A DNA stretch of 64,000 bases from Tubulanus polymorphus. Its lineage: Eukaryota; Nemertea; Palaeonemertea; Tubulaniformes; Tubulanidae. The stretch spans positions 12,648,278 through 12,712,277 of the forward strand of contig NC_134030.1 of the NCBI RefSeq assembly GCF_964204645.1, in the 5' to 3' direction. Position numbers and translations under genes: made by a program. Below the pieces are notes generated by a model. The model was not told the DNA's origin. It worked only from the letters and a program-made list of their open reading frames with translations, and did not search any database. Shown piece after piece: positions 20,571-61,899 of this stretch (position 1 is the stretch's first letter; the number at the start of each line of letters is the position of its first letter).

Positions 20571-21440
20571 TCAACACTTATGGTACAATTTTGATAACGG
20601 ACGGTTGCTTATACCATTTGCTGTTTTGATTGTAACTGACCGCACTTTCTGGTCAGAACCCCTTGCCAGATGGTGCACATACCCTATCTTCCACCTGAAA
20701 TGGGGCAGATTTTCCTGTTGTTCCAAGCATTCTCTTAGTCTAAGCAAATATTCATTTTGCCAACGTGACCAAAAACGTACTAAGAGACGATTCAAATAGA
20801 AGTAACCTATTGTAAGAATATTGTAATCTGAGTAAATCGAATCACCGTTCAGATTTTTAATTGGAAATAATTTGGATAGAGCAGTGAAGCGCCGTCCACG
20901 CAGGAGATGTGACGCGGTGAGTACCTCGTCTTCAAAGTCAACCGATATATAAGTCAATGGACGATCATTCAAGCAAGCTTCAATTTCACATAGAACAGTT
21001 CGTAATTCTATTTCACTAATGCTTGATCTGCCAAGAGTCTTTTTCAAACAATTTTTTGCCAAACCTACTATTCGCTCCCAGAATCCTCTGTGCCAAGGAG
21101 CAGCCTTAGAAATAAATTTCCATTCAACGTTTCGATGTGAAAGGAACTGATGAAGTTTTGTTTCTTTTTGCAAACGTCGATGATTCACAGTCGGTGGCAA
21201 CAAAAGGCGATTGATTATCAGATTTCAGCATCCTTGGCACGGAACATCTGGTAGCGAAATGTCTGAAACAATAAAGAAGGAAAATCTTGGACAAATTCTC
21301 TTGGACAGAACTGTTCACAAGTTCAATATGTATAGCGCAGGAAACCGCACACGTAAATAAACAAATCCAAATTTACTGATCACCCTTGACAATAAAGGGT
21401 CCACAATAATCTAGACTACATAAGTAAAGGCAGGTAGTTA
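20571..21440 (-). pseudogene. BEL/Pao integrase fragment
   Basis: The frame 20571-21203 (210 codons) reads WKFISKAAPWHRGFWERIVG, then CLNDRPLTYISVDFEDEVLT, ASHLLRGRR, RFWSRWQNEYL and a C-terminal end RSVTIKTANGISNRPLSKLY. These are diagnostic of the BEL/Pao integrase core and C-terminus. An upstream frame has CFRHFATRCSVPRMLKSDN, and degraded LLWTLYCQG sequence continues to about 21440. It lies 5' of the Gag and RT fragments on the minus strand, the reverse of normal order. Confidence 0.9.
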
Positions 21441-29089: not shown

Positions 29090-50140
<21,051 letters not shown>

Positions 50141-54335: not shown

Positions 54336-55711
54336 CTGACTTGGACCAGCACAAGGAACACAGATTGGGGTCCTCCCAGGCCCTAAAAAGGTGAATTCAT
54401 CCCTCGCCACCTCGATGCTGCCCTCTAGGGAGAAGCATCAATCGAACAAAATACAAATACAAAATTTGATACATACTTCTTGACATACCTTGGCACGTAG
54501 CCAAGGAGTATTATGGGATAGTCAACAATACAATAACTACGTGTATCGTACAACTACCACGATGAAAGCAAGAGTGAAAGATCCTCAAATGTTGGGACTC
54601 ACCATTAGAGAGTGCAAGATTTCCATTTCTTCCATAATCCCAAAACTAGATCCAGCGATGCATCCGATGCTTTCATAGCCGAACACCAGAGAGAAAAGAT
54701 GACAGATTTCTGCTTTGGATTGCGTAGTGCTCTCAGGAGGGTCGTATAGAAAAATCATTGCCAATCATTGTAAATTCAGATATCATTGGCAAAAAACCAA
54801 AGGAAAGGGTATTTGAAGGAAATATCAAGACTATGATATACAGCCTGATGATATTCAACAGAATCATAATTTCCAAGTGCAATTTCTAGCACTTGTCTGT
54901 AAGGAATGCACTATTCATAAGCTTAGGCAACACAACTTATCTTCAAAATTTATGCGGATATTCGAAACATGCTCAGTGACAGTAAGTCGCATACCGGTAA
55001 TCTATTGATCCATTGTTAAAAGTTAACACACAGATATCAACAAATAATGAAAATTAATGAAATTTACCCATAAGCAATCAGGGATTCCTGTATGTAGTGT
55101 ATATTACTCATCAAAAAATTTATTTCAAGGAAAAATACTCACCTATTATGGTATCAAATAGCTGATTAAATAGCAGTTTGTGTTGTTATGTAGAAATTGT
55201 CCAGGTTTTGGGAATGCAATGGGCTACCAAAATCGTGACCTTTTGTCCCCAAAATTTCATCCCAACTACGCCTACCCTCAGTTCTGTCATGCTAATACCC
55301 CAAATACTCGAGAATTTCAAATTAGATGTAACATGGATGTCCATTTTTTCTGAGGTAATGGGTTAGAATCCAAATTTTTATGTAGCAGATGAGTATTCTA
55401 GGGCAGATTTTGGCAACGTGAGAATTAGTAGCCAGCGTAGATGCAGGCGGATAGAGGGCTAGTAGGTAAATTGAGTCTCTGTATTGGAATTCATTCAAGA
55501 TGTTGTATGATGAGTGATGGCTTTGATTTATGCCTTTTGCTTTCATGAAAATGTGATAGGTGAGAAAAATTACCTAACAAGATAGAAATTCTAAAAATGG
55601 GCTTGCTGACATGGGTGTACTGAAAGCTTGATGGTTTTGTATTTCTGAAGTAGAATTAATCGAACTGATTACTTTTTAAAGAGCTAAGAGATCGGTGTTG
55701 TCTACATAATA
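54336..55711. other. No gene recognised
   Basis: AT-rich flank of the inverted-repeat element. 55190-55470 is a diverged copy of the MITE family at 27181-27645. No exon is visible. Confidence 0.45.
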
Positions 55712-56071
55712 GGGGTAATGGGCTTTCAGGCCAAAGGTCGAACGGTCGAGCTCATTAAAAAACAAAACATTAAAAGTAATTAAAAACTATAATATATTTT
55801 CATAACCGTGTGCATTTTATATTAAAACTAAATATTTATTCTAAGACATCAATAATTTAAAAAGCATATTGTATTAAATCAATTGGTCGCTCATAAAAAA
55901 TGAAAAACATGAAAATAACAATAATTTCTACTTGAATTACTCGCGAAACTCATAAAAAATGAAAAATAATTCTCGCATGCTCGAATTTATTTTTCATTTT
56001 TACTCGTTAGAAAAAAGTGTGAGTAAAGTGTGAGTGAAATAATTCATAAATCATTGAATATTTATATTTAT

Positions 56072-56728
56072 ATGCGTTGGATTCATTTTAATAAAAGTTT
56101 TGTTATTAAAATGAAGACAGAAGAAGAACCCAACTTTAAAATCGAAATCAATGAAACCAATAAATCATTTTCACAGTTTTACATTAAAAATTATATTTCA
56201 GCAACAAATTTAGTGTCCGCAAGACATTATAAAATCGATAATATTACTATGATTAATCAAATATTATCAAATGAAACATATTTAATTATTGAACTAGTAG
56301 ATACTTTTGATAATGGCGTTAAAAATCCTAAATTGTTAAATAAAGTTTTTAATTTTAAAGGAACTTTAGATGAAAACATAATTAATATTCTTAAAACTCC
56401 TTTCAATGAAAGAAATGATGATATAATACTTTCAAAAGATTACAATGATTTGATTGACTTAAGAATTGAAAGAAGACAATTATATTATTTCAATTTTGAT
56501 AATAAACAAATTATCTATAATGAAAATTCATCAAATATTGGAATTCAATGTGAATTAGATAATGAAAAATCATTTAAAGATATTGCAGTTCAATGAAAAT
56601 TAGATGATGAATTTAGAAAATTCAATCCTAATGAAAAAGTGCATTGTTATTGCGGAGGTAAATATTTAAAATCACATAAATCAAAGCATTATGAAACAAT
56701 TAAACATAAAAACTGGTGTAAAGAGTAA
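56072..56728 (+). pseudogene. Left-arm copy of the Cys/His-motif protein gene, broken
   Basis: Starts at ATG 56072 (MRWIHFNKSFVIKMKTEEEP) and is open to TGA at 56594-56596; the same frame then continues through the Cys/His motif to TAA at 56726-56728. The right-arm copy has a Cys codon where this one has TGA, a single-base difference. Otherwise the two proteins differ at only a few residues (for example LLNKV against LFNTV). Truncation removes the C-terminal motif. Confidence 0.7.
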
Positions 56729-56775
56729 CAATTCTACATTATAATTATTGAATTGAGTTAAAAGATTTAAATATC

Positions 56776-57374
56776 TAATAGACTGTTAAAATGATAAATT
56801 GTTTGACAGTTGAAATGATAAATTGTTTGACAGTTGAAATGATAAATTGTTTGACAGTTGAAATGATAAATTGTTTGACAGTTGAAATGATAAATTGTTT
56901 GACTGTTGAAATGATAAATTGTTTGACAGTTGAAATGATAAATTGTTTGACAGTTGAAATGATAAATTGTTTGACTGTTGAAATGTTAAATTGTTTGACA
57001 GTTGAAATGATAAATTGTTTGACAGTTGAAATGATAAATTGTTTGACAGTTGAAATGATAAATTGTTTGACTGTTGAAATGTTAAATTGTTTGACAGTTA
57101 AAATGATAAATTGTTTGACAGTTGAAATGATAAATTGTTTGACAGTTAAAATGATAAATTGTTTGACAGTTGAAATGATAAATTGTTTGACTGTTAAAAT
57201 GATAAATTGTTTGACAGTTGAAATGATAAATTGTTTGACAGTTAAAATGATAAATTGTTTGACAGTTGAAATGATAAATATTTTGACAGTTGAAATGATA
57301 AATATTTTGACAGTTGAAATGATAAATTGTTTAACAGTTGAAATGATAAATTGTTTGGCTGTAAATTTAATTGT
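56776..57374 (+). repeat. 24-bp minisatellite, left arm (about 25 units)
   Basis: Head-to-tail ATGATAAATTGTTTGACAGT plus TGAA, with a few base variants (AAATG for GAAATG, ATATT for TTGTT near the end). Because the unit is 24 bases without a stop, the array reads as a 196-codon frame of MINCLTVE repeats from ATG 56791 to a stop at 57379-57381. Whether it is translated is unknown. Confidence 0.9.
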
Positions 57375-57481
57375 TATTTGATTTAATCATTTAAAAGTTT
57401 AATATTTTTAAAATGATTATAAAATATTTAATTAAAAACTAGCAAATATTTTATAAACTGTTTAATTTTTCTCTTAAATAA

Positions 57482-57700
57482 ATGGATGGTTTCATTTCAA
57501 CTGGGAAAAGTGATTTGAAACATTATTTAGTTGCTGGAGGTTTAATATTGGCGGCATTATACTTTTACTATGAAAATATTTCAAAAGATTTGATGAATGA
57601 AAATAATAAATTGAGTAAAAAATTAAAGAAGTTAAATGGAAACAATCACAGAAATAAAAAGAATAAAAAAGTTAATGATTTAAATGATTTAGAGGATTAA
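57482..57700 (+). CDS. Uncharacterised 72-residue single-span membrane protein, left copy
   Basis: ATG to TAA, 72 codons: a short N-terminus (MDGFISTGKSDLKH), one hydrophobic span (YLVAGGLILAALYFYY, residues about 15-30), then a highly charged Lys/Asn-rich tail (NNKLSKKLKKLNGNNHRNKK). The right-arm copy has the same length and a single residue change (Ser6 to Pro). Preservation of length and frame in both arms supports a real gene. No family recognised. Confidence 0.65.
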   Translation: MDGFISTGKSDLKHYLVAGGLILAALYFYYENISKDLMNENNKLSKKLKKLNGNNHRNKKNKKVNDLNDLED

Positions 57701-57778
57701 AACAGCATCTTTTAATTTCATATATTTTGACTATAAAAATGAGTGAAAATATATTAAACTTATTAACTTACCAACTTA

Positions 57779-57902
57779 CCAATAGCGCGAATAGAAATCA
57801 AAAAGATTTAAATAAAAAAACAATAAGTTACTTTATCTAATACTAACTTATTGAACTTAGTTTTTTTATTTAAATCTTTTTGATTTCTATTCGCGCTATT
57901 GG
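57779..57902. repeat. Perfect 43-bp hairpin in the spacer
   Basis: The left arm CCAATAGCGCGAATAGAAAT (57779 onward, to 57821) is complementary to 57860-57902 (ending ATTTCTATTCGCGCTATTGG) across 43 bp. A further 9-bp pair, AATAAGTTA/TAACTTATT, lies inside the loop. It starts 13 bases after the end of the left arm. Confidence 0.9.
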
Positions 57903-58474
57903 TTAACAAGAATTGACTAGAATTAAAATAGATTTAACAAGAAATTCAATAACTTTAACTGTTAGTATCACTCTTGTATTATTTCATTGTTTCTCTTATT
58001 GAATAAGCCAACTAACTAATATCACTCTTGTATTATCCTAGTCAAATGTAAAGAATTTACAATATCATACTTGAATGAATTAAAACATAAATTACTTCTG
58101 TTACTTCATTTTCAGAAATAAAGCATAATATGTATTTAATACCATTAATATGTATTTGATACGTATTTAATACGTATTTGATACATTGATACCTCAACCC
58201 CCTTTTTGGTAAACTAATATTTCATACAATATTTCATACATTTCAACTAATTTAACAGTCTTATTCGTGATTTATTTCATTTAGTTTATGAATACACAAT
58301 ATACACAATTTAATACTTAAACAGTTAAACAATCTAGCGGGTTCATTGTAATCCTCTTTTATTAATGATAAATGTAAATACATAATTGAATATGATTTAT
58401 ACTTTTCCAAATATTTATAATAAATCTGTTAGATAAATAGATATTGAAACAGAAATATATATGATAAAACTATT

Positions 58475-58559
58475 TATGTACTAGACGTACGAGTAAGAAT
58501 CCAAGATTCTTACTTTCTTGGCAAGAATCTTACTTTCTTACTCGTACGTCTAGTACATA
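58475..58559. repeat. Perfect 25-bp hairpin in the spacer
   Basis: TATGTACTAGACGTACGAGT continuing to 58499 is complementary to 58535-58559. The loop repeats AAGATTCTTACTTTCTTGG. The arms themselves contain the palindrome ACGTACG-like sequence. Confidence 0.9.
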
Positions 58560-58672
58560 GATATATAAATTAGTTTTTATAAAAATCATAAATATAAATT
58601 ATTAATCTAAATATTGAAATAGTTATAATATTATCTATTTTTATATTTTCAACCAATTTAACAGTCTTATTC

Positions 58673-58975
58673 TCAATTTGAATTATACAGTTTATCATCT
58701 AATTCATGAATATATTTATGCTTTCTCAAACTCTTTTTATTTTTATATCTTTTATTACAAATTTCACAACACTTAATATTATTCAATCTATCTGAAATAT
58801 AATTCATATTTTCTATTAATTCAGTGTATCTAATTTTACAGCAATCATAGAATTCTAACAACTGTTTTATAGTATAAACTGAGAATGAAAATAAACCTGT
58901 AAGCATAATAATTGATTTAATATTCTGTTGATTTTTATATATTAGATGTAATAAGTTTAATATATTTTCACTCAT
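58673..58975 (-). CDS. Uncharacterised 100-residue protein: membrane span plus C2H2 finger
   Basis: Starts at ATG 58975 (MSENILNLLHLIYKNQQNIK) and ends before 58673. It has a hydrophobic span (SIIMLTGLFSFSVYTI, about residues 24-39), a polar middle, then a classic C2H2 pattern Cys-x2-Cys-x12-His-x3-His (CEICNKRYKNKKSL...HKYIH). The first nine codons are inside the right arm, the rest in the unique spacer. The left arm keeps ATG and the first nine codons (57739-57765) and then diverges, so only one full copy exists. A finger next to a membrane span is an odd pairing. No family recognised. Confidence 0.6.
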   Translation of the reverse strand: MSENILNLLHLIYKNQQNIKSIIMLTGLFSFSVYTIKQLLEFYDCCKIRYTELIENMNYISDRLNNIKCCEICNKRYKNKKSLRKHKYIHELDDKLYNSN

Positions 58976-59013
58976 TTTTATAGTCAAAATATATGAAATT
59001 AAAAGATGCTGTT

Positions 59014-59232
59014 TTAATCCTCCAAATCATTTAAATCATTAACTTTTTTATTCTTTTTATTTCTGTGATTGTTTCCATTTAACTTCTTTAATTTTTTACT
59101 CAATTTATTATTTTCATTCATCAAATCTTTTGAAATATTTTCATAGTAAAAGTATAATGCCGCCAATATTAAACCTCCAGCAACTAAATAATGTTTCAAA
59201 TCACTTTTCCCAGTTGGAATGAAACCATCCAT
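59014..59232 (-). CDS. Uncharacterised 72-residue single-span membrane protein, right copy
   Basis: Same protein as at 57482-57700, differing at residue 6 (MDGFIPTG). It sits between the minisatellite and the spacer-crossing gene, and the two small genes are on the same strand with 38 bases between stop and next ATG. Confidence 0.65.
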   Translation of the reverse strand: MDGFIPTGKSDLKHYLVAGGLILAALYFYYENISKDLMNENNKLSKKLKKLNGNNHRNKKNKKVNDLNDLED

Positions 59233-59346
59233 TTATTTAAGAGAAAAATTAAACAGTTTATAAAATATTTGCTAGTTTTTAATTAAATATTTTATAATCA
59301 TTTTAAAAATATTAAACTTTTAAATGATTAAATCAAATAACAATTA

Positions 59347-60119
59347 AATTTACAGCCAAACAATTTATCATTTCAACTGTTAAACAATTTATCATTTCAA
59401 CTGTCAAAATATTTATCATTTCAACTGTCAAAATATTTATCATTTCAACTGTCAAACAATTTATCATTTTAACTGTCAAACAATTTATCATTTCAACTGT
59501 CAAACAATTTATCATTTTAACTGTCAAACAATTTATCATTTCAACTGTCAAACAATTTATCATTTTAACTGTCAAACAATTTATCATTTCAACTGTCAAA
59601 GAATTTATCATTTTAACTGTCAAACAATTTATCATTTCAACTGTCAAACAATTTATCATTTTAACTGTCAAACAATTTAACATTTCAACAGTCAAACAAT
59701 TTATCATTTCAACTGTCAAACAATTTATCATTTCAACTGTCAAACAATTTATCATTTCAACTGTCAAACAATTTAACATTTCAACAGTCAAACAATTTAT
59801 CATTTCAACTGTCAAACAATTTATCATTTCAACTGTCAAACAATTTATCATTTCAACAGTCAAACAATTTATCATTTCAACTGTTAAACAATTTATCATT
59901 TCAACTGTCAAACAATTTATCATTTCAACTGTCAAACAATTTAACATTTCAACTGTCAAACAATTTATCATTTCAACTGTCAAACAATTTATCATTTCAA
60001 ACAATTTATCATTTCAACTGTCAAACAATTTATCATTTCAACTGTCAAACAATTTATCATTTCAACTGTCAAACAATTTATCATTTCAACTGTCAAACAA
60101 TTTATCATTTTAACAGTCT
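59347..60119 (-). repeat. 24-bp minisatellite, right arm (about 32 units)
   Basis: The same unit as the left arm in inverse orientation, with several more copies. A unit near 59996-60003 lacks 7 bases, which shifts the frame, so the open MINCLTVE frame starts only at 60004 and the outer five units read in another frame. Confidence 0.9.
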
Positions 60120-60170
60120 ATTAGATATTTAAATCTTTTAACTCAATTCAATGATTATAATGTAGAATTG

Positions 60171-60827
60171 TTACTCTTTACACCAGTTTTTATGTTTAAT
60201 TGTTTCATAATGCTTTGATTTATGTGATTTTAAATATTTACCTCCGCAATAACAATGCACTTTTTCATTAGGATTGAATTTTCTAAATTCATCATCTAAT
60301 TTACATTGAACTGCAATATCTTTAAATGATTTTTCATTATCTAATTCACATTGAATTCCAATATTTGATGAATTTTCATTATAGATAATTTGTTTATTAT
60401 CAAAATTGAAATAATATAATTGTCTTCTTTCAATTCTTAAGTCAATCAAATCATTGTAATCTTTTGAAAGTATTATATCATCATTTCTTTCATTGAAAGG
60501 AGTTTTAAGAATATTAATTATGTTTTCACCTAAAGTTCCTTTAAAGTTAAAAACTGTATTGAACAATTTAGGATTTTTAACGCCATTATCAAAAGTATCT
60601 ACTAGTTCAATAATTAAATATGTTTCATTTGATAATATTTGATTAATCATAGTAATATTATCGATTTTATAATGTCTTGCGGACACTAAATTTGTTGCTG
60701 AAATATAATTTTTAATGTAAAACTGTGAAAATGATTTATTGGTTTCATTGATTTCGATTTTAAAGTTGGGTTCTTCTTCTGTCTTCATTTTAATAACAAA
60801 ACTTTTATTAAAATGAATCCAACGCAT
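60171..60827 (-). CDS. Uncharacterised 218-residue protein with C-terminal Cys/His motif
   Basis: Start chosen at ATG 60827; the frame is open about 14 codons further upstream without an earlier ATG. Not recognised as a named family. The body is rich in Asn, Ile, Lys and Asp (FKIEINETNKSFSQFYIKNY, IDNITMINQILSNETYLIIE). The last 40 residues hold a Cys-x-Cys-x11-His-x5-His motif (starting CYCGGKY, ending TIKHKNW), a zinc-ribbon-like pattern that I associate with proteins of large DNA viruses, mobile plasmids and selfish elements (recollection, not searched). There is no signal peptide or membrane span. It could be DNA-binding. Codon use is extremely AT-biased, unlike the host genes here. Confidence 0.6.
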   Translation of the reverse strand: MRWIHFNKSFVIKMKTEEEPNFKIEINETNKSFSQFYIKNYISATNLVSARHYKIDNITMINQILSNETYLIIELVDTFDNGVKNPKLFNTVFNFKGTLGENIINILKTPFNERNDDIILSKDYNDLIDLRIERRQLYYFNFDNKQIIYNENSSNIGIQCELDNEKSFKDIAVQCKLDDEFRKFNPNEKVHCYCGGKYLKSHKSKHYETIKHKNWCKE

Positions 60828-61213
60828 ATAAATATAAATATTCAATGATTTATGAATTATTTCACTCACACTTTACTCACACTTTTTTCTAGCGAGTAAA
60901 AATGAAAAATAAATTCGAGCATGCGAGAATTATTTTTCATTTTTTATGAGTTTCGCGAGTAATTCAAGTAGAAATTATTGTTATTTTCATGTTTTTCATT
61001 TTTTATGAGCGACCAATTGATTTAATACAATATGCTTTTTAAATTATTGATATCTTAGAATAAATATTTAGTTTTAATATAAAATGCACACGGTTATGAA
61101 TATATATATTATAGTTATATATTACTTATATATTATAGTTTTTAATTACTTTTAATGTTTTGTTTTTTAATGAGCTCGACCGTTCGACCTTTGGCCTCAA
61201 AGCCCATTACCCC

Positions 61214-61899
61214 TATTACTATCATACACCCGGGGACTGGGAATCAGAATGGTTTTATTGTAGACGTGGACCAAGTAAGTGCTAGCTTTTAGATGGTCGT
61301 TATTTGAATATGGCGGTGTCTTTTCGGAATCTATCATAGATAATTGCTAGATTACTTATGAAGACTGTGCTGAAATAATTTGGCTGTAGAAAAATTTACA
61401 GCTGAAAGAAAAAAATATGACTAACGTGAGTGACTTCAGGTGAAGAAAAGCGAACATGAAAATTGATAGGAGCACGATTTTTCTTATAAAAACATAAAGA
61501 CATAAAGCAAAAATAAGTTGCATTTCCTTCAAATGACAATCCACTACGATCATCAGATAATGTTTAATGCCACCATAAACTATCGCCCCCTGGCCCTCCA
61601 AAGAGACAGGGAACCAGTCAAACCAGCCAATTCAATTCAGAATTTATTTTACAAAAAAGCAGTTTTAAGTTTTAGCATAGGTTTTAGATAAACTGAAAGA
61701 TAGATAGAGCAGATAGATAAACTGAAAACGTATAAATGTTCCTACGAAGATTTTTTCAAATGGCCGCTAATGCAAGCACCCAATGAAAGTAAAAGAAAAT
61801 TAAAAGAATTTCTAAAAACGTGAAAGTGTTTTATTGTTAAATTTTAATTGTGTCAATAAAGAATGAATTGAATTGTCATCAGCACTATGCAGCCCATGA
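61214..61899. other. No gene recognised
   Basis: Flank of the inverted-repeat element, AT-rich, no exon visible. Confidence 0.4.

Follow-up and report, generated by a model that had tools for sequence, protein, structure and literature searches.

Within a 64,000-nucleotide stretch of the genome of the ribbon worm Tubulanus polymorphus (contig NC_134030.1 of assembly GCF_964204645.1, positions 12,648,278 to 12,712,277 of the forward strand; hereafter the window), a large inverted repeat very probably represents a non-autonomous, gene-bearing, palindromic satellite of a Polinton/Maverick element, with ends used in trans by its helper and arms copied by snap-back. What we observe is that its family has Polinton-type termini, 6-bp target duplications in most of the relatives examined, sequence that also occurs in a Polinton of this genome, palindromic structure, and small genes under purifying selection. 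A first-pass annotation had suggested that the element could be a new class or an integrated virus-like or plasmid-like genome. Its gene-bearing, palindromic and virus- or plasmid-like character was borne out, but the type of integration is not an unknown one, given the Polinton termini and the 6-bp duplications.

The element occupies window positions 55706-61220, slightly more than the 55712-61213 first proposed, and the inverted repeat is far beyond chance. Its left (55706-57765) and right (58949-61220) arms are identical at 2,047 of 2,060 aligned positions (99.4%), separated by 13 substitutions and by three gaps of 1, 26 and 185 bases, the longest being a difference in the length of a tandem array (8 units between the arms). 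The giant repeat of about 5.5 kb with arms of more than 2 kb was thus found as annotated, as was its strong AT enrichment (guanine-plus-cytosine (GC) content 22.2% within the element versus 38.0% in the remaining window). Its features, including several open reading frames (ORFs) given by length in amino acids (aa), are as follows:

55706..55892, plus strand: Polinton-type terminal repeat at the left end; its outermost bases are damaged, without the AGT start, and it has no clear target duplication (terminus scan)
56013..56058, plus strand: left copy of a segment that also occurs ahead of the Polinton polymerase gene (84% across some 50 nt)
56072..56725, plus strand: 218-aa gene, left copy, interrupted by a single in-frame stop that follows codon 174
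56781..57357, plus strand: 24-bp tandem array of the left arm, 24 units
57482..57700, plus strand: left copy of the 72-aa ORF; hydrophobic stretch, then charged tail (by eye)
57766..57777, no strand: junction of the left-arm deletion of about 1.05 kb (left match stops at 57765, partner at 58949)
57778..57903, no strand: conserved hairpin, the palindrome centre in relatives L046 and L048
58673..58975, minus strand: 100-aa ORF with a weak C2H2 finger, right half only
59014..59232, minus strand: right copy of the 72-aa ORF
59357..60118, minus strand: 24-bp tandem array of the right arm, 32 units
60171..60827, minus strand: 218-aa ORF, intact; its C-terminal CxCG..H..H motif resembles a finger (by eye)
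60841..60886, minus strand: right copy of the Polinton-polymerase upstream sequence (wider alignment including relatives, and right arm through the ATG)
61007..61220, minus strand: right terminal repeat, ending ...GCCCATTACCCCTATTACT (terminus scan and alignment to the Polinton end)

Four small frames had been annotated as repeated or shared between the arms. The 218-, 100- and 72-aa ORFs do occur, but the 100-aa gene is confined to the right half, because the left arm lacks about 1.05 kb beside the centre, including its 100-aa copy; relatives have that stretch in both arms. The same deletion leaves the hairpin off-centre, and the window copy is an interrupted form of the palindrome. The long "MINCLTVE" frames turned out to be the 24-bp tandem arrays, which are open on both strands. 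No transposase had been recognised, and none of the window ORFs matches one; nor do they match a polymerase, integrase, packaging ATPase or capsid protein in Pfam or PHROGs, and the weak matches of the small ORFs in these two libraries were judged to be chance. Since its ORFs match no such enzymes, we keep the element apart from Polintons proper. Rfam matched nothing anywhere in the window. A second near-perfect hairpin, seen by eye at 58476-58558 in the central region, holds a 20-bp repeat.

The family is widespread. We searched the assembly (267.8 Mb, 77 contigs) and extracted 20 stretches around chosen loci for comparison (stretches are designated L, contigs C). The 218-aa protein has at least 162 genome matches (150 of 692 candidates scored), which lie on many contigs and include several broken ORFs; the 100-aa and 72-aa proteins have at least 150 each (150 of 374 and 150 of 340 candidates scored, respectively). 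Neighbouring 218-aa matches less than 10 kb apart are convergent in all 29 of 29 pairs among the 150 matches listed, with spacings of 0.8-8.9 kb. The copies measured are 5-8 kb long, and four relatives are palindromic over their whole length when compared with their own reverse complement (L044 99.2%, L046 99.7%, L047 98.9%, L048 99.3%); for others this identity is 95.7% (L053), 89.1% (L043), 87.9% (L054), 86.3% (L045) and 78.2% (L042). In four relatives, in other words, the second arm duplicates the first about a central turning point, as their whole-element palindromes and the conserved hairpin display. This hairpin, about 126 nt long, forms the centre of L046 and L048; its predicted fold has an energy of -51 kcal/mol (z -16.8), and 0 of 200 shuffled sequences were equally stable.

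Perfect palindromes are a known product of chimeric fold-back reads, and the first-pass annotation had named this danger. An assembly artefact is nevertheless very improbable here: at seven elements the flanks differ on the two sides and carry 6-bp duplications, the window arms differ by 13 substitutions and 8 array units, and copies lie on many contigs with the uniformly convergent pairing described above. L055 and L056 (C5:8645807, C5:8659121), both 218-aa-bearing and 13.3 kb apart, have the same left flank, and look like a duplication of host DNA carrying the element. L014-L017 (C2:17704721, C14:177799) represent the same palindromic element on two contigs, with identical 218-aa gene copies, perhaps because of a duplicated contig or haplotype.

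The termini place the family among Polinton-type elements. The family terminus reads AGTAATAGGGG...CCCCTATTACT (terminal inverted repeats of the AG...CT type), and its 12-base end motif occurs 385 times in forward and 392 times in reverse orientation in the genome. In the window, the right end is intact (ATTACT, then ATCATA), and the left end is damaged, as it reads GTCTAC followed by ATAATAGGGG and has no AGT start. Counts of target duplications are informative only for elements with both ends located within 4 edits; among nine such short elements, seven are flanked by perfect 6-bp duplications (L043 ACTGCC, L044 ACCGGT, L045 AATATG, L047 TTCAAC, L048 CCTATG, L053 CCTACT, L054 GAGACC). The annotation had looked ahead to further copies with TA or longer duplications in their flanks; seven of these nine elements have the longer kind. 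Vertebrate Mavericks likewise have AGT...ACT ends and 6-bp duplications (PMC8097293).

These ends also decide against a foldback element or a TA-target cut-and-paste transposon, for which there is next to no likelihood left. Long arms bearing tandem repeats and a TA adjoining GGGG, noted earlier at both ends, would fit such an element, but the TA lies within the longer conserved terminus, without any TA duplication, and the duplications are of 6 bp outside the AGT...ACT termini of relatives, so that a Tc1/mariner type was rejected; moreover, the same ends are found on an enzyme-bearing Polinton. Readings as a miniature inverted-repeat transposable element (MITE) were rejected as well.

That Polinton lies in the same genome. 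A 17.7-kb element at C1:12562026-12579724 has the termini of the family and a CACGTT duplication. When it was cut into pieces and each was searched apart, Pfam matches were obtained to DNA_pol_B_2 (1.2e-6) and endonuclease VII in the polymerase piece, to rve (7.4e-7) and Chromo (6.2e-5) in the integrase piece, both slightly under the Pfam curated scores, and to Pox_A32 (2.9e-12), an A32-type packaging ATPase. We identify this element as a Polinton/Maverick because of its enzyme set (polymerase, rve, ATPase), size, ends and duplication, although the polymerase of this copy has two in-frame stops. AATCAA stands at each end of another interval, some 36 kb long, whose two ends both resemble polymerase-gene ends. 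The packaging ATPase query gave at least 150 matches (150 of 1,552 candidates scored), all 95-100% identical and most without stops; Polintons are therefore very abundant in this genome and have undergone a very large expansion.

The satellite family and this Polinton share more than their ends. The left terminal sequence of about 190 bp in the window (55707-55892) is 94% identical to the left end of the 17.7-kb Polinton; for the right end the figure against that Polinton end falls to 83%, owing to a 26-base insertion. The sequence before the satellite 218-aa gene aligns with that before the Polinton polymerase gene, through the ATG, which makes Met-14 the likely start of the 218-aa protein. 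About 50 bp of the end of the Polinton ATPase gene is found near the centres of L044, L047, L049 and L053 at 90-92% identity, so these four relatives have been in contact with Polintons. The first-pass annotation had held that copies belonging to a known Polinton family would undo its proposal; the ends, together with the stretch that precedes the first gene, are indeed Polinton's, whereas the gene set and the palindromic architecture belong to the family itself.

A further structure was seen at the ends themselves. Putative MITE pairs of about 330-400 bp (L001/L002, L003/L004, L005/L006, L007/L008) were rejected, as they are single ends of longer elements, and each of these four Polinton-type places contains an inverted second terminus. 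At all four long-element ends examined (L001, L003, L005, L007; C1:12562026-12579724 and C1:12756625-12792821) it lies about 330-400 bp inside, surrounding a GC-rich hairpin, and resembles a miniature snap-back that has fused with the end. The satellites L045 and L054 also hold a second inverted terminus.

The small genes are under purifying selection. In IQ-TREE GY codon models, the fitted ratio of nonsynonymous to synonymous substitution rates (omega) was compared with omega = 1 by log-likelihood (lnL). For the 218-aa gene, omega was 0.28 over 22 elements (lnL -2291.15 vs -2323.65; 2*delta-lnL 65), using one arm per element and dropping L049 and L037 (broken), L027, L033 and L039 (partial) and a third, distant L054 copy; pairwise values (dN/dS) were milder, with a median of 0.40 over 264 pairs with dS >0.02. 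For the 72-aa gene, omega was 0.061 over 18 sequences (lnL -667.43 vs -706.15; 2*delta-lnL 77), and for the 100-aa gene 0.20 over 24 sequences (lnL -1133.03 vs -1161.61; 2*delta-lnL 57). These last two sets comprise every distinct sequence whose coverage was 80% or more and may therefore include both arms of one element; stop codons were masked in 1 of 18 and 3 of 24 sequences, respectively. The 218-aa protein has no database homologue at E <= 10 and no relatives in IMG/VR.

Selection of this kind speaks against the idea that these elements are inert, MITE-like deletion derivatives of Polintons, which kept the ends while a passenger interior of functionless genes was duplicated by chance snap-back. 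The lack of recognised enzyme genes, the broken ORFs of several copies and the stop in the left 218-aa copy of the window would suit such derivatives, but three genes with omega well below 1, together with a 758-aa protein that has eight relatives (23-55% identity) in other sequence data, make this account quite improbable.

The 758-aa protein raises the main rival explanation. In L043 and L049, a frame of 758 or 743 aa occupies the position of the 24-bp array in other elements, and the 24-bp unit was not found, at up to 4 mismatches, in the 758-aa-gene relatives L043, L049 and L036. The gene has at least 64 genome matches (59 of 150 candidates scored), several of them as convergent pairs, and the alignment of its eight database relatives has invariant D.D.T.D..G.F, YNK and E.GL positions. 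No Rep or enzymatic domain was recognised in the protein, with no informative match in Pfam, PHROGs or PDB and no relatives of the family in IMG/VR; the large ORFs of L043 and L049 gave no recognisable polymerase, integrase or ATPase. The motifs DxDxTxD..G.F, YNK and RxE are presumably spaced like those of Rep initiators, an assumption of ours that no library supports, and the 758-aa protein of some relatives may, judging from such motifs, be a replication initiator. Because the arrays sit where the 758-aa gene lies in other elements, they are candidates for sites that this protein may bind.

One could accordingly picture an independent small virus or linear plasmid with the 758-aa protein as its own replication protein, which acquired its Polinton ends and upstream sequence through recombination and relies on the Polinton for integrase alone, elements of the window type being defective forms in which the 758-aa gene was replaced by 24-bp repeats. 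The 6-bp duplication around the 758-aa-bearing L043, the convergent pairs among the genome matches and the motifs conserved across database relatives agree with this. On the other hand, no enzymatic domain was recognised in the protein, the termini and upstream sequence are Polinton's, and scored 758-aa matches are far fewer than 218-aa matches, many being partial or having stops. We regard such a replicon as unlikely, even as the strongest competitor.

For the favoured reading, a palindromic Polinton satellite, we infer from the like termini and duplication length that mobilisation probably occurs in trans by Polinton enzymes, and we also infer replication through the hairpin. The integrase and replication machinery of the Polinton would recognise the satellite ends and insert the element. 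The unit genome would be about 3 kb, about half the element, with one Polinton end and one hairpin end, and the palindrome would be its dimer form: copying that starts at the Polinton end, turns at the hairpin and returns (snap-back replication) would make the second arm anew, and would keep the two arms within an element similar even though elements differ from one another. The arms are nearest their own partner rather than any other element examined in 11 of 15 elements (L046, with two identical copies, was left out, and the identical C2/C14 element was counted once). The window copy would later have lost its one-sided stretch next to the hairpin, a loss that cutting of the extruded centre by the host would be expected to produce. 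The small genes plausibly serve replication, packaging or interaction with the helper. Such a snap-back dimer would account for palindromes that span whole elements, for the likeness of their arms, for the ends and upstream sequence in common with Polintons, and for the 6-bp duplications.

Several observations weigh against this reading. In the window copy itself the left end is damaged and a clear target duplication is missing; L046 also lacks a duplication; only one terminus was located within 4 edits in L039, L055 and L056, and none in stretches L037, L038, L040-L042 and L049-L052. Among the 150 listed 218-aa matches, 92 have no listed partner (150 of 692 candidates scored). In four of the 15 elements (L045, L051, L050, L040/41) an arm is nearer another element. 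The hairpin halves are separated in L044 and L047, with a new centre formed between them, so that one fixed hairpin is not required. Finally, the initiator view of the 758-aa protein draws on likeness of motifs, with no informative library match. More tentatively still, and with rather more doubt than confidence, the family could be a two-layered satellite of polintoviruses, a virus of a virus, that makes its perfect palindrome by way of a hairpin end: 758-aa carriers would stand beside 24-bp-repeat amplifiers that lost the 758-aa gene, and the selected genes may aid the helper or interfere with it.

Compared with known systems, the family resembles vertebrate Mavericks in its AGT...ACT ends and in the 6-bp duplications of seven of nine members, and shares the terminal repeat and the polymerase-upstream sequence with the local Polinton, but Polintons/Mavericks are 15-25 kb long (PMC6431247), whereas the satellites are 5-8 kb in the copies measured, palindromic and equipped with their own genes, with no polymerase, integrase or ATPase recognised. 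The closest published form found is the snap-back subgenomic genome of adeno-associated virus (AAV), which is double-stranded, snaps back from one parental end and has been proposed to have a satellite-like role (PMC8235507). The present family differs in being integrated at more than 100 loci (58 paired and 92 single listed matches), in belonging with a different virus group, and in carrying distinct, selected genes instead of nothing but parental pieces. Virophages and transpovirons, the latter 7-kb episomes (PMC7031253), are likewise gene-bearing DNA elements tied to a larger DNA virus; in the present case, a Polinton residing in a eukaryotic genome would act as helper, and the element is a palindrome. 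The IMG/VR scans, the sole protein comparison made, gave no likeness to virophage or transpoviron proteins. Tlr elements of Tetrahymena were once suggested to be a non-autonomous Polinton derivative and are reported to have their own capsid-protein lineage and an ancient divergence (PMC4028283); the passage on them mentions no palindromic satellite form. Foldback/Galileo elements have long, internally repetitive inverted arms (PMC3573991, PMC3688188), as does the present family, but Galileo is a P-type element, in contrast to the 6-bp duplications, Polinton-type termini, genes in the arms and hairpin centre seen here. No palindromic, satellite or non-autonomous Polintons like this family were recognised among open-licence PubMed Central (PMC) titles and abstract openings.

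Elsewhere in the window, a GC-rich (up to 51%) retroelement at 38499-43111 (minus strand) encodes a reverse transcriptase (3e-26) and RNase H, and adjoins a 375-aa ORF which we take to be DIRS-type tyrosine recombinase-like, with no Pfam match. An ORF at 20574-21224 (minus strand) has a DUF5641 match (3.6e-13), presumably of a kind characteristic of the tails of BEL/Pao integrases. Tandem repeats of 146 bp form two arrays, at 1-678 and 1675-2163.

Polintons are held to lie close to the root of numerous lineages of eukaryotic DNA viruses. If true, a satellite that carries genes and is associated with them at many loci would offer strong evidence from the genome that they replicate as viruses and are exploited as such. 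The family also offers a natural system for the question of how near-perfect palindromes of 6 kb replicate and persist in a chromosome.

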